64,000 nucleotides of DNA. Source: Erysipelotrichaceae bacterium (GTDB taxonomy: Bacteria; Bacillota_I; Bacilli_A; Erysipelotrichales; Erysipelotrichaceae). A program made the translations under genes and the position numbers. Shown here piece by piece: positions 12,452 to 21,977 of the stretch (its first letter is position 1; each line of letters starts with the position of its first letter). The stretch is from NCBI GenBank assembly GCA_015058875.1, contig SVBN01000005.1:1-64000 (forward strand), given 5' to 3'. The notes beneath the pieces are model-generated. The model saw only the letters and a list, made by a program, of their open reading frames with translations. It did not search any database and had not been told where the DNA came from.

Positions 12452-13113
12452 TTATTCCGTCGCACCGTACTGCGCGTAATATGCGTCAATGCGGGCTTTC
12501 AGATCAGCATCCAGCATGCCCTTTTCTTCGAGGATCTCAACGACCTCCGGCATGGAGACGATTGCGGCTGTTTCGAATCCGTATGTTTCCGCGACTTCCT
12601 TCAGGGCCGTCTTTGTGCCCTTGCCCTTTTCATGGCGGTCCAGGGAAACCATCAGGCCGACGATCTCGACATTGGCCTGTCCGCGGACGATCGGAACTGT
12701 TTCTTCCATGGACTTGCCGGAAGTCGTGACATCTTCAATCATGACAACCCGGTCGCCGTCATTCAGCTTCGATCCGAGCAGAATTCCCGTCTCGCCGTGG
12801 TCCTTCGCTTCCTTGCGGTTTGTGCAATAGCGTACTTCTTTCCCGTAAAGCTCATAGATTGCCATCGCTGTGGCGACGGAAAGCGGAATGCCCTTGTAGG
12901 CAGGTCCGAACAGGACGTCGAAATCCAGTCCGAAGCGGTCATGGATTGCCTTTGCATAATAGCAGGCAAGATCATGGAGCTGTCTGCCGGTCACATATGC
13001 GCCGGCGTTCATGAAGAACGGTGATTTTCTTCCGGACTTCAGTGTGAAGTCGCCGAACTTCAGTGCCTGGCAGTCCAGCATGAATTCGGTAAATTCCTTT
13101 TTGTATTCCTGCA

Positions 13114-13114
<1 letters not shown>
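12452..13114 (-). CDS. pyrE: Orotate phosphoribosyltransferase
   Basis: PyrE joins orotate to PRPP to give OMP, the fifth step of UMP synthesis. The 220 residues carry the PRPP-binding motif VVMIEDVTTSGKS and the N-terminal orotate-site segment FTLKSGRKSPFFMNAG. KGIPL and YCTNRKEAKDHGE form the dimer-interface catalytic loop region. Its start touches the pyrF stop by one base, and a terminator follows, making it the last cistron of the operon. Confidence 0.96.
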
Positions 13115-15447
<2,333 letters not shown>

Positions 15448-15451
<4 letters not shown>

Positions 15452-18400
15452 CGTTCGGCCTCCATCTCGTTCATGGATACCATTGCGAAGCTTCTGCTTT
15501 CGAGCACCTTCAGCAGCGCATCGGCTGTATCCAGGCTGGTCATGCAGGAGATATTGTTTTCCGCTGACACGCGGCGGATCAGGAATCCGTCCTCACGCTT
15601 GGAGCGGCTCGCGGCGTCCATTGTATTGACGACGAAGCTGACCTTGCCCTTCTGGATCACATCCAGAACGGATTCGTTTTCGCTTTCTTCGCTGATCTTT
15701 GCGGTATGGTGCACGAACAGTCCGTTTTCCTCGAGGAACTGTGCGGTGCCTTCCGTCGCATACAGGCCGTATCCGATCGCATAGAACCGCTTCGCAAGAT
15801 CCAGGGCAGCCTGCTTGTCGTCGCGGGCAATCGTGAAGAGCACATTGCCGTACTGCGGAATCCGTACGCCGCTTCCGAGCAGCGCCTTGTACAGAGCTTT
15901 TTCCAGACTTGTATCGGCGCCGAGCGCTTCACCGGTTGACTTCATTTCCGGGCCGAGCACCGTATCGACGCTACGCAGCTTCGCAAAGGAGAATACCGGC
16001 GCCTTGACATAGACGCGTCCGCGCTGGTCCTGATGATAACCGGGCGTATATCCCTGTTCCGGAATGCTTTCGCCGAGGATCGCCTTGGTGGCAACCTGGC
16101 ACATCGGAACGCCGGTGATCTTGGAGAGGAACGGCACCGTTCTGGAAGATCTCGGGTTGACTTCCAGGACATATACCTTGTTGTTTCTGTCCACAATGAA
16201 CTGGATGTTGTAGAGTCCGATGAAATGGAATCCCTTTCCGATCCGCAGACCGTAATCGATGATGGTGTTCTTCACCTCTTCGGACACCGTCTGGGTCGGA
16301 TAGACGGAAATGGAGTCGCCGGAGTGGATGCCGGCGCGCTCGATATGTTCCATGACGCCCGGGATATATACATTCTCGCCGTCCGCAATCGCATCGATCT
16401 CCAGCTCCTTGCCGAGCACATAGCGGTCGATCAGGATCGGGGAATCATGGCTGATTTCCTTGACGGCAGTCGACATGTAAACCTTCAGTTCTTCTTCGTT
16501 ATGAACGATTTCCATCGCTCTTCCGCCGAGCACATAGCTCGGTCTGACCAGTACCGGATAACCGATCCGTCCGGCAATTTCCAGCGCCTTTTCGACGGTC
16601 ACCGCCGTATCGCCTTCCGGCTGCGGGATGCCGAGTCTGTCCAGCATGGTTTCAAATTCATGACGGTCTTCGGCCGCGTTGATATTCTCCAGCGTTGTGC
16701 CGAGGATCTTTACGCCGTGCTTCACCAGGCTGTCCGCCAGGTTGATCGCGGTCTGTCCGCCGAACTGGACAATCACGCCGAGCGGCTGTTCCAGATCGAC
16801 GATATGCATGACGTCTTCCGTCGTCAGCGGTTCAAAATACAGCTTGTCGGAAATCGAGAAGTCCGTGGATACGGTTTCCGGATTGTTGTTGATGATGATG
16901 GCTTCATAGCCTTCCTCGTGCAGGGTCTGCACGCAGTGCACGGTCGCATAATCGAATTCCACGCCCTGGCCGATGCGGATCGGACCGGAGCCGAGAACGA
17001 TGATCTTCTTTTTATCGCTCGGAACGGATTCGTTTTCCTGCTCATAGGCGGAATAGAGATACGGCGTTTCGCTCGGATATTCCCCGGCGCATGTGTCGAC
17101 CATCTTGTAGACCGGCGTGATGCCGTTCTGCTTTCTCAGATCATACAGATCCGCTTCCTTCATCTTCCACTGGCGGCTGATCCAGGCGTCGGAGAAGCCT
17201 GTCTTTTTCGCGGTGCGCAGCACGTCCACATCTCCGGGATGTTCCTTTACCAGCGTTTCAATTTCCAGAATCTTATAGAGACGGTCGAAATAGAAGCGGT
17301 CGATGTTGGTGATCTTCTGCATTTCGTCCGCGTCATAGCCTCTTCTCAGCCATTCCGCAAGGGCGAAGAAGCGTTCGTCATCCCTGCCCTTGATCTTGCT
17401 GAAGAGTTCTTCCTTCGAAGCTTCGGTGAGCTCCTTCCGCTCAATGTGGTCCACCTTGGTCTCCAGGGAACGGACGGATTTCAGGAAGGATTCCTCAAAG
17501 GTTCTGCCGATGGACATGACCTCGCCGGTCGCCTTCATCTGGGTGCCGAGCTGTCTGTCCGCATTCGGGAACTTATCGAACGGCATGCGCGGGAACTTGG
17601 TGACGATATAGTCGACCGAAGGTTCGAAGCATGCATAGGTTGTCTTCGTGACCGGATTCAGGATTTCATCCAGCGTCAGGCCGACCGCGAGCTTGGCGGA
17701 CACGCGGGCAATCGGATAGCCGGTTGCCTTGGAGGCCAGCGCCGAGGAACGGGAGACACGCGGATTGACTTCGATGACATAGTATTTGAAGCTCTTCGGA
17801 TCCAGAGCGAGCTGAACATTGCAGCCGCCGCAGATCCGCAGGGCGCGGATGATCTTGTGGGCAACCGATGACAGCATATGGTTTTCATAGTCCGTCAGCG
17901 TCTGAACCGGAGCCACGACGATCGAGTCGCCGGTATGGATGCCGACCGGGTCGACATTTTCCATGCTGCAGATCGTGATCGCATTGTCCTTCGCATCGCG
18001 CATGACTTCATATTCGATTTCCTTGTATCCGGCAATCGACTGTTCGATCAGGCACTGATGCACCGGGGACATCTTCAGACCGGTATCGGTAATATGACGG
18101 AGTTCCTCCTCATTGTGGGCGAATCCGCCGCCGGTGCCGCCCAATGTATAGGCAGGTCTGACAACCAGCGGATATCCCTGTCTGTCGCCGAAGGCGACCG
18201 CTTCCTCAATGGAATGAACGATCACACTCTCGGGAATCGGTTCATGGATTTCCTGCATCAGGGAACGGAACATCTCGCGGTCTTCCGCCTGGTTGATCGC
18301 ATTCAGATCCGTGCCGAGAACTTCGACGCCGAATTCATCCAGAATGCCGTCCTCATGCAGATCGACAACCAGATTCAGTCCGGTCTGTCCGCCCAGCGAT

Positions 18401-18664: not shown

Positions 18665-19711
18665 TTATTCTTCCCCCTTCATTGCACATTCAAAGTTATC
18701 GAAGAAGCAGCTGTCCGGTTCAAATTCAATGCCGGAGCATTTTCTCTGCCCGTCGCGGAAGCCTTCCACGCTTCCGTCATTCAGCGAGCGGTATGTGACG
18801 CTCAGCCCTGCCTTTTCAGCAGACTGTGCATCCGGGGCATAATCATGATTCTGACGGGTAATCTGCACGCTGCCGTCGGAAAGATCGACAACCGCCTGGT
18901 TGGGACCGTGGTGGCCGTGCTTCAGGGCATTCAGCGTGCATCCGCAGGCAAGCGCCAGCACTTCACCGCCGAGTCCGTATCCGAATACCGGAACCTGTCC
19001 GATCAGCTGCCGGACGGTTTCCGTTTCTTCCTTCAGTCCTTCCGGATTGCCCGGACCGCCGGAAAGCAGAACGCCTTCGGGATGATAGCCCAGGATTGTT
19101 TCCGCGGAAGTATTGTGCGGGACAATGATCAGATCATAATCGCGCTCGGCGCACTCTCTCAGCACGCTCAGCCGCACGCCGTAGTCCACCATGACAACCT
19201 TATGGCTTCTGCCCGGGATCGGGTAGATGGAACGGGTGGAAACGGTTCTGACCGGATGCTCTTCCGGTTCATATGCACGGATCTTCTCCAGCAGTGCGGG
19301 GACTTCTTCCTCCGTATTGCAGAAGCCGGCGCGCATTGTGCCGCTGTTTCTCAGACGGCGGACAATCGCGCGGGTATCCACGCCCTGGATGCCGGGAATG
19401 TCCATGCGCTTCATGTAGCTTTCCAGTGTTTCCTCACTGCGGAAATTGGAAGGCTTATCCGCGGCTGTTCTTACGACAAGTCCGAACAGCGACGGCTTCA
19501 GGCTCTCATTGTCTTCACGGTTGATGCCGTAGGCACCGATCAGAGGGTAAGTCATTACGACAATCTGCCCGCAGTGCACGCTGTCAGTGATAATCTCCTG
19601 ATAGCCTGTCATGCTGGTGTTGAAAATCAGACTTCCGATCCGGAAACGGTCTGATCCGAGGGCTTCTCCCGTATAGAAGGAGCCGTCTTCCAGTACAAGT
19701 ATTCGTTTCAT
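18665..19711 (-). CDS. carA: Carbamoyl-phosphate synthase small subunit with degenerate glutaminase site
   Basis: CarA normally hydrolyses glutamine and channels ammonia to CarB. This 348-residue copy has the complete N-terminal CarA domain ([34 protein letters not shown]) and a full-length class I amidotransferase fold. The nucleophile elbow, usually GICLGHQ, reads GYGLGGE, so the catalytic Cys is Gly and the Gln-binding His-Gln pair is Gly-Glu. The usual F-HPEASPGP reads [11 protein letters not shown], removing the catalytic His and Glu. The codons leave no ambiguity. Free ammonia or a partner may feed CarB. The start was moved to ATG at 19711, next to the pyrC stop, with GGGAG upstream. 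Confidence 0.93.
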
Positions 19712-20999: not shown

Positions 21000-21881
21000 T
21001 TAAAAGCCGAAGGCACGCTTGATCACAGCCTTGCGCACCAGTACGCCGTTTGCCATCTGCGGGAAGATTCTGCTCTTTTCAGCTTCCACAAGATCAGTGT
21101 CGATTTCCACGCCGCGGTTGACCGGTGCCGGATGCATGACGATCGCACTGTCCTTCATCCTTGCATAACGTTCTCTGGACAGGCCGTACCGGTTCAGATA
21201 ATCCCCGTCGCTGACCTCTTCCAGGGCAGCGCCGCGCTCTTTCTGGATTCTCAGCATCATGACGACATCCGCTTCCGGAATTGCTTCGTCAAAGTCAACG
21301 ACCTCAAAGCCCTCGCGCTCCCATTCCTTCGGTCCGGCAAAGCGGACGGTGGAGCCGAGCTTTTCCAGTGCTTCCTTATTGCTGGAAGCGACGCGGCTGT
21401 GGGCGATATCACCGCAGATCACGACGTTCAGTCCCTGCAGTGTTCCGAATTCCTTATACATCGTAAGCAGATCCAGCAGGCACTGGGTCGGGTGATCCCC
21501 TTTTCCGTCTCCGGCGTTCAGGATCGGCACATTGATGTTTTCCAGTTCCTTGTAATACTCATCCTGCGGATGGCGGATTACAAAGAGATCATAGCCAACC
21601 ATTTCCAGTGTTTTCAGCGTATCATACAGCGTTTCACCTTTGGTCACGGAGCTCTGGGATACGGCAATATCCGCCACTTTCATACCAAGCTGAAGCTGGG
21701 CGCTTTCAAATGAATAATGCGTTCTCGTCGATGCTTCAAAAAAAAGATTGGCCGCAAGTGCTTTCGACAAGGGAAGCTGCCAATCTTTGAATTCGTTATC
21801 GAATAATAAAGCATCATCGAGGATCTGTACAATATCCTTCGCGGTAAGATCACGCATGGACAATAAGGAATGTCTGTTCAT
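21000..21881 (-). CDS. pyrB: Aspartate carbamoyltransferase catalytic subunit
   Basis: PyrB condenses carbamoyl phosphate with aspartate, the committed step of pyrimidine synthesis. The 293 residues show the carbamoyl-phosphate loop FFEASTRTHYSFE, the SVTKGETLYDT loop, IRHPQ, GDGKGDHPTQCLLD and the aspartate-site MLRIQKER. No pyrI follows, so this is an unregulated trimer of the Bacillus type. It is the first cistron of the operon, with CGGAGG upstream of its ATG. Confidence 0.96.
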   Translation of the reverse strand: MNRHSLLSMRDLTAKDIVQILDDALLFDNEFKDWQLPLSKALAANLFFEASTRTHYSFESAQLQLGMKVADIAVSQSSVTKGETLYDTLKTLEMVGYDLFVIRHPQDEYYKELENINVPILNAGDGKGDHPTQCLLDLLTMYKEFGTLQGLNVVICGDIAHSRVASSNKEALEKLGSTVRFAGPKEWEREGFEVVDFDEAIPEADVVMMLRIQKERGAALEEVSDGDYLNRYGLSRERYARMKDSAIVMHPAPVNRGVEIDTDLVEAEKSRIFPQMANGVLVRKAVIKRAFGF

Positions 21882-21899: not shown

Positions 21900-21940
21900 A
21901 AAAAAAGGAAGAAAGCAGTTTCTGCTCAGATTCCTTTTTC
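21900..21940 (-). promoter_or_regulatory. Terminator-like hairpin in the pyr operon leader
   Basis: On the minus strand AAAAAGGAATC-TGAGCAG-AAA-CTGCTTTCTTCCTTTTTTT forms a strong stem-loop ending in seven T residues. It lies between the pyrB promoter and the pyrB ribosome binding site and so would stop transcription unless overcome. This is the layout of pyrimidine-operon attenuators. I see no clear anti-terminator or PyrR binding loop, so how it is relieved is unknown. Confidence 0.6.
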
Positions 21941-21949
21941 TCTGCTGTG

Positions 21950-21977
21950 ATTATACAGTAGTATCGCAGGATTTCAA
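21950..21977 (-). promoter_or_regulatory. Promoter of the pyr operon
   Basis: TTGAAA, 16 bases, TATAAT on the minus strand. The transcript would begin about ten bases before the leader hairpin, roughly 60-65 bases upstream of the pyrB start codon. Confidence 0.8.

Follow-up and report, generated by a model that had tools for sequence, protein, structure and literature searches.

As a glutamine amidotransferase with a tunnel for ammonia, carbamoyl-phosphate synthase (CPS) is a textbook case, and the bacterial enzyme is taught as glutamine-dependent. The large subunit of E. coli CPS can use ammonia to make carbamoyl phosphate (PMC6245113), and it does the same in vivo according to the title of Rubino 1987, which is cited in that paper. 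E. coli CPS with a blocked or perforated tunnel is described as normally active with external ammonia, and CPS1 as unable to use glutamine, its catalytic Cys having become Ser and its S2 domain being inactive (PMC4655335). A preceding sequence-only reading of the locus described below had noted that vertebrate CPS I lost the same Cys and uses free ammonia. The E. coli precedent and the CPS1 case therefore lead us to expect that loss of the catalytic triad leaves an ammonia-dependent enzyme.

Two further systems provide partial parallels. Single-domain, ammonia-dependent NadE belongs to the ATP-dependent amidotransferases, and bacteria use ammonia there without a glutaminase (PMC3376133); its ammonia form is thought ancestral, whereas the CPS glutaminase appears to have been lost secondarily and many times. 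The carbamate-kinase-like CPS of Pyrococcus likewise synthesizes carbamoyl phosphate from ammonia (PMC6022934), but it has another protein fold, and no carbamate kinase was found in the 93%-complete genome studied here. A survey of 600 genomes in 2012 described carAB as fused, clustered or remote, and its Table 1 lists none without glutaminase (PMC3376133, Table 1). In a search confined largely to the open-access literature, we found no report of a triad-less or CarA-less bacterial CPS.

The locus lies in a 64,000-nucleotide contig stretch from an Erysipelotrichaceae bacterium (hereafter the window). By sequence comparison and analogy with characterized enzymes, it very probably encodes a pyrimidine-operon CPS that is unable to hydrolyse glutamine and uses free ammonia. 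It resembles E. coli CarAB (CPS II) in its two-subunit architecture, operon partner, CarA fold (TM 0.94 to 1c30_B) and 1071-aa CarB with the same conserved catalytic residues; unlike E. coli CarAB, it has no triad, its CarA loop is deleted, and CarB Q262 and R265 are replaced. It would thus work like the engineered E. coli Cys mutants, but as a natural enzyme. With vertebrate CPS I (mitochondrial and ammonia-specific) it shares an inactive glutaminase-like domain that is kept with its fold, and ammonia, the nitrogen donor in CPS I, is presumably also the donor here. It differs from CPS I in being bacterial, in having separate rather than fused subunits, in having lost the whole triad, and in belonging to a pyrimidine operon rather than to the urea cycle; the two enzymes are of independent origin.

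A complete pyrimidine operon with an inactivated CarA

The window belongs to a fragmented, 3.03-Mb assembly that is 93% complete. Its pyrimidine operon runs pyrB-pyrC-carA-carB-pyrK-pyrD-pyrF-pyrE from 21881 to 12452 on the minus strand, with names assigned by similarity and gene order:

21000-21881, minus strand: pyrB, aspartate transcarbamoylase, the sole transcarbamoylase found in the genome
19713-20981, minus strand: pyrC, dihydroorotase
18665-19711, minus strand: carA, CPS small subunit with an inactivated class-I glutaminase domain; open reading frame of 348 aa
15448-18663, minus strand: carB, complete large subunit of 1071 aa, identified by profiles and catalytic-residue comparison
14714-15451, minus strand: pyrK
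13806-14714, minus strand: pyrD
13114-13809, minus strand: pyrF
12452-13114, minus strand: pyrE

All eight genes are present, as the sequence-only reading had stated for the remaining pyr enzymes, and carA and carB are two separate genes with carA immediately upstream. Ahead of pyrB, positions 21913-21977 hold a promoter-like TTGAAA-16-TATAAT and a weak terminator-like hairpin, possibly an attenuator; the pyr operon gave no Rfam match for an RNA leader.

A single PF00988 match, corresponding to one CarA, was found in the 93%-complete genome, along with one CarB. A search for a second carA returned none in this fragmented assembly, and none in five related genomes (G019, G020, G027, G030 and G037). 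Within the window's 93%-complete genome we likewise found no carbamate kinase, no OTC or other transcarbamoylase besides PyrB, and no AmtB ammonium transporter; a glutamine synthetase is present. With a single CarA and CarB, one transcarbamoylase and no carbamate kinase, CarAB therefore appears to be the one source of carbamoyl phosphate in evidence, with pyrimidines as the one transcarbamoylase sink.

The window CarA was matched over its full length by TIGR01368 (336.2 bits against a cut-off of 307.35), and profile searches recovered both the PF00988 and PF00117 domains. Alignment placed three altered sites in its glutaminase half:

18962-18982, minus strand: degenerate nucleophile elbow GYGLGGE, usual form GICLGHQ (alignment with more than 100 CarA sequences)
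18713-18721, minus strand: degenerate His-Pro-Glu motif, Glu331-Pro332-Asp333 (EFEPDS)
18707-18712, minus strand: Ser334-Cys335, site of an 8-residue loop deletion (alignment with more than 100 CarA sequences)

The triad Cys is replaced by Gly246 (codon GGA, 18974-18976), the triad His by Glu331 (18719-18721) and the triad Glu by Asp333 (18713-18715), while the equivalents of elbow residues H272 and Q273 are Gly249 and Glu250. The claims of the sequence-only reading that the triad and the Gln-contacting His-Gln pair were lost in a sound reading frame are thus upheld, the frame being open and matched to CarA throughout. The missing loop, of the ASPGPHD type, lies just after the His/Glu motif, and its deletion takes out the E. 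coli P358-G359-P360-H361 region in numbering derived from the alignment. The GGPG oxyanion region and the QNH motif are still present.

An AlphaFold2 model of this CarA reached a pLDDT of 95.6. Its best Foldseek match was the E. coli structure named above, a C269S mutant, and human CPS1 was matched at TM 0.88; the dead glutaminase domain is accordingly modelled as still folded. The "glutamine-hydrolysing" label of the family model is very likely wrong for such proteins.

CarB keeps its catalytic residues and changes at positions 262 and 265

The window CarB scored 1500 bits against TIGR01369 (cut-off 1027), with two ATP-grasp halves and the oligomerisation and MGS domains present. The comparison covered the catalytic positions of E. 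coli CarB for which conservation holds among family members whose CarA is intact. The window protein keeps R129, R169, E215, Q285, E299, N301, R303 and R715, as well as E761, Q829, E841, N843, R845 and others, and these positions are also retained in all groups with dead, truncated or absent CarA.

A co-change scan covered the 356 CarB columns with a conservation of 90% or more where CarA is intact; where CarA is dead, a column was on average changed in 1.7% of the CarBs. Ranked by phylogenetically independent pairs, Q262 and R265 came first and second of the 356, and both are replaced in the window:

17869-17880, minus strand: CarB residues 262-265 (E. coli Q262 to His, R265 to Ser), by column comparison

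Q262 is changed in 17 of 21 CarBs with dead CarA, in 3/3 with truncated CarA and in all 28 without an adjacent CarA, against 1 of 49 with intact CarA; the corresponding counts for R265 are 8/21 (dead), 28/28 (no adjacent CarA) and 0/49 (intact). For Q262, 6.4 of 9 independent pairs ran in the expected direction and 0 in the opposite one (median p of 0.031 in a sign test, without correction for the 356-column scan by which the position was found). CarB thus co-evolves with glutaminase loss at Q262 and R265.

"Perforated tunnel" mutants of E. coli CPS were reportedly described by Kim and Raushel in 2004, in a study that PMC6245113 cites, and we take CarA P360/H361 and arginine 265 to be the residues mutated in that study. 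By analogy, with P360/H361 deleted and CarB R265 replaced, the window CPS would be a natural perforated tunnel.

Dead, truncated and absent CarA recur within the family

The same replacements (Cys to Gly, Gln to Glu, His to Glu or Asp, and Glu to Asp), together with the loop loss, occur in G019, G020, G027, G030 and G037. The Cys and His columns are therefore lost in five other species, giving six species of one genus with a common dead CarA (CarA identity 67-72%). Two of these genomes are public MAGs labelled "Solobacterium sp.": G019 (L002) comes from cow duodenum and G020 (L003) from goat jejunum. Other congeners (G046, G055, G002, G035, G048 and G025) retain Cys, His and Glu, and in G021 and G057 the Cys was lost differently (Gly, Asp). 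CarA of G057 lacks the Cys and still has HPE, and likely represents an earlier stage of glutaminase loss.

The genus sample comprised 60 genomes, with CarA in 34 and CarB in 48. Fourteen genomes of the genus have CarB without a CarA match; one of these (G006) reflects a contig break, leaving 13. The absence of CarA from one MAG may be a gap, but hardly so in all 13, and their CarBs form one CarA-less clade, which is well supported and contains 23 sequences. Several of the CarA-less genomes, and second copies elsewhere, show the order pyrC-carB-pyrK-pyrD-pyrF without carA (L145, L148, L155), and others have a lone carB that is not part of a pyr operon. Direct succession of pyrC and carB with no carA was seen in the window's genus at L145, L147, L148, L155, L156, L157, L158 and L161.

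In genus g22, dead CarA occurs in G129 and G193, both single contigs. In G173, G188 and G198 of the same genus, only a CarA of about 130 residues lies between pyrC and carB, with a PF00988 match and no GATase domain:

L200:5588-5980, L201:5843-6241, L202:9144-9542: mini-CarA of about 132 residues, N-terminal CPSase_sm_chain domain only (g22)

The mini-CarA has a dN/dS of 0.058 between G188 and G198.

CarA could be read in 91 genomes of the genus and order samples: 63 have only intact CarA, 23 dead, 3 truncated, and 2 dead plus intact, and all dead or truncated forms in these samples fall within the window's family. Since the window's genus is over-represented in this material, the counts should not be read as frequencies. 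In G104 (L278) and G164 (L279), one pyr operon holds two carA-carB pairs in tandem, the one with a dead and the other with an intact CarA. On the CarB tree the dead state required 10 changes, 8-9 of them forced by well-supported branches; a quick tree of 112 rows and a mixture-model tree of 63 rows both gave 10. Because regaining a triad is implausible, these roughly 10 changes would mostly be separate glutaminase losses. The sequence-only reading had treated the dead CarA as a single oddity; it is instead recurrent in the family.

Ammonia as the probable nitrogen donor

An ammonia-dependent bacterial CPS, as proposed from the sequence alone, is the reading best supported by these comparisons, which point to a single CarA, an intact CarB and purifying selection. 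It is further supported by the lack of any other carbamoyl-phosphate source found and by relatives that have dropped either the GATase domain or the entire CarA and still have CarB in a pyr operon. The absence of an AmtB match from the 93%-complete genome speaks against it. CarB would do all the chemistry: bicarbonate would be phosphorylated, ammonia would attack, and the resulting carbamate would be phosphorylated. CarA would persist in folded form but without catalytic function, holding and probably stabilising CarB, a need that can fade, as the truncated and CarA-less lineages show. Ammonia from bulk solvent would probably enter near the CarA-CarB junction, which appears remodelled on both sides by the CarA loop deletion and the replacement of CarB Q262 and R265. 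We infer this use of ammonia in vivo, its entry route and the structural role of CarA. Ammonia is plentiful in the ruminant gut, and an ammonia-dependent CPS should be affordable where it is plentiful.

The GATase half might instead have gained a new activity or regulatory ligand, for example ammonium sensing through Glu250, Glu331 and Asp333; we regard this as unlikely, and such a role could coexist with ammonia dependence. The replacements of Gln by Glu, His by Glu or Asp, and Glu by Asp are found in all six clade members even though the rest of the domain diverges, which speaks for a new role. However, other dead-CarA lineages carry different residues at these positions than the window clade, and the whole domain is deleted in g22 mini-CarAs; no common new role is apparent.

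It is quite improbable that CarAB is still glutamine-dependent, with another glutaminase docking on CarB or on the dead CarA and feeding it ammonia. Stand-alone amidotransferase subunits do serve more than one enzyme in some bacteria, as TrpG/PabA illustrates, and in G104 and G164 the neighbouring dead and intact CarAB pairs of the operon would permit subunit exchange. In the window's genome, however, no TrpG, PabA or HisH occurs among the PF00117 matches; the other class-I GATase matches are PyrG (CTP synthase, fused, triad intact) and a stand-alone peptidase-C26-like hydrolase. Neither would be a normal CPS partner, leaving no plausible stand-in amidotransferase by sequence. Moreover, the 13 CarA-less relatives have a CarB and no CarA to dock on, and conservation of CarB is lost at positions 262 and 265, which fits an enzyme for which delivery from CarA has ceased to matter. 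The supply by another protein that had been offered as a second option is thus disfavoured.

Decay of carA, and perhaps of the whole pathway, with pyrimidines being salvaged, is very improbable, although dead CarA evolves far faster than its intact counterparts. At 90-95% CarB identity, CarA identity is about 95% in pairs with intact CarA (n = 11, mostly from one bacillus genus), whereas it is only 67-71% in dead-CarA pairs (n = 3), where CarB is at 91%; several genomes of the genus also lack both CarA and CarB. Yet the frame is open in all six species, CarB is 91% conserved with its catalytic residues kept, and the operon is complete. CarA dN/dS is 0.080 for G019/G020 and 0.055 for G027/G037 (partial gene), and that of CarB is 0.06-0.07 (wider pairs); a pseudogene reading of carA is rejected by these values of 0.055-0.08 in close pairs.

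The two halves of dead CarA differ in constraint. The GATase half has a dN/dS of 0.28 against 0.11 for the N-terminal half in the pair of the window and G027, and 0.20 against 0.08 in that of the window and G030; intact-CarA pairs show no consistent contrast between halves. The closest pair has no faster GATase half. In G019/G020, this half alone has a dN/dS of 0.053. The per-half and whole-gene values therefore show that the dead CarA is retained as a protein while its former glutaminase half is under relaxed constraint.

There is next to no chance that a sequencing, assembly or binning error made the dead CarA, even though the source assembly is fragmented and metagenome-type, because six species share the changes in one syntenic operon in independent assemblies from other hosts, and a parallel state exists in the single-contig genomes G129 and G193; a base-calling or assembly artefact is therefore rejected.

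A graded natural series

Within the family, CarA ranges from intact through triad-dead and GATase-less (mini-CarA) to absent, in most cases in the setting of a pyr operon, and these states form a graded series that occurs in nature. On the ammonia-dependent reading, we consider it likely that Erysipelotrichaceae switched their pyrimidine CPS from glutamine to ammonia about 10 times, leaving such a series behind and remodelling CarB 262-265 for direct ammonia use. If true, the CarB-only pyr operons would be the first natural stand-alone ATP-grasp ammonia CPS found in bacteria, as far as we have searched, and the engineered-mutant experiment would have been repeated many times naturally in one gut family with every intermediate preserved. 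With the series, it becomes possible to test why the glutaminase is usually retained (ammonia scarcity), what role a dead CarA plays, and by which route ammonia reaches the active site without a glutaminase.

Occurrences outside the family

Beyond the family, a triad-less CarA lies in the pyr operon of Siminovitchia, whose genome has a second CarA, and in that of an Enterococcaceae MAG with a single CarA. In the Clostridia MAGs L049 and L062, the sole CarA is triad-less and sits in an arginine operon, argC-argB-argD-carA-carB-argF; glutaminase loss is therefore not confined to pyrimidine CPS.

Two observations concern CarB itself. Arginine-operon CarBs of about 1343 aa were seen at L172:8102-12133, L173:9164-13195 and others, and that of L172, beside an intact CarA and argF, has a C-terminal diaminopimelate-epimerase-like domain (PF01678). 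In the sister family f2 (L210, L211, L216), a second, very divergent CarB of about 1072 aa is common besides the intact CarA-CarB.
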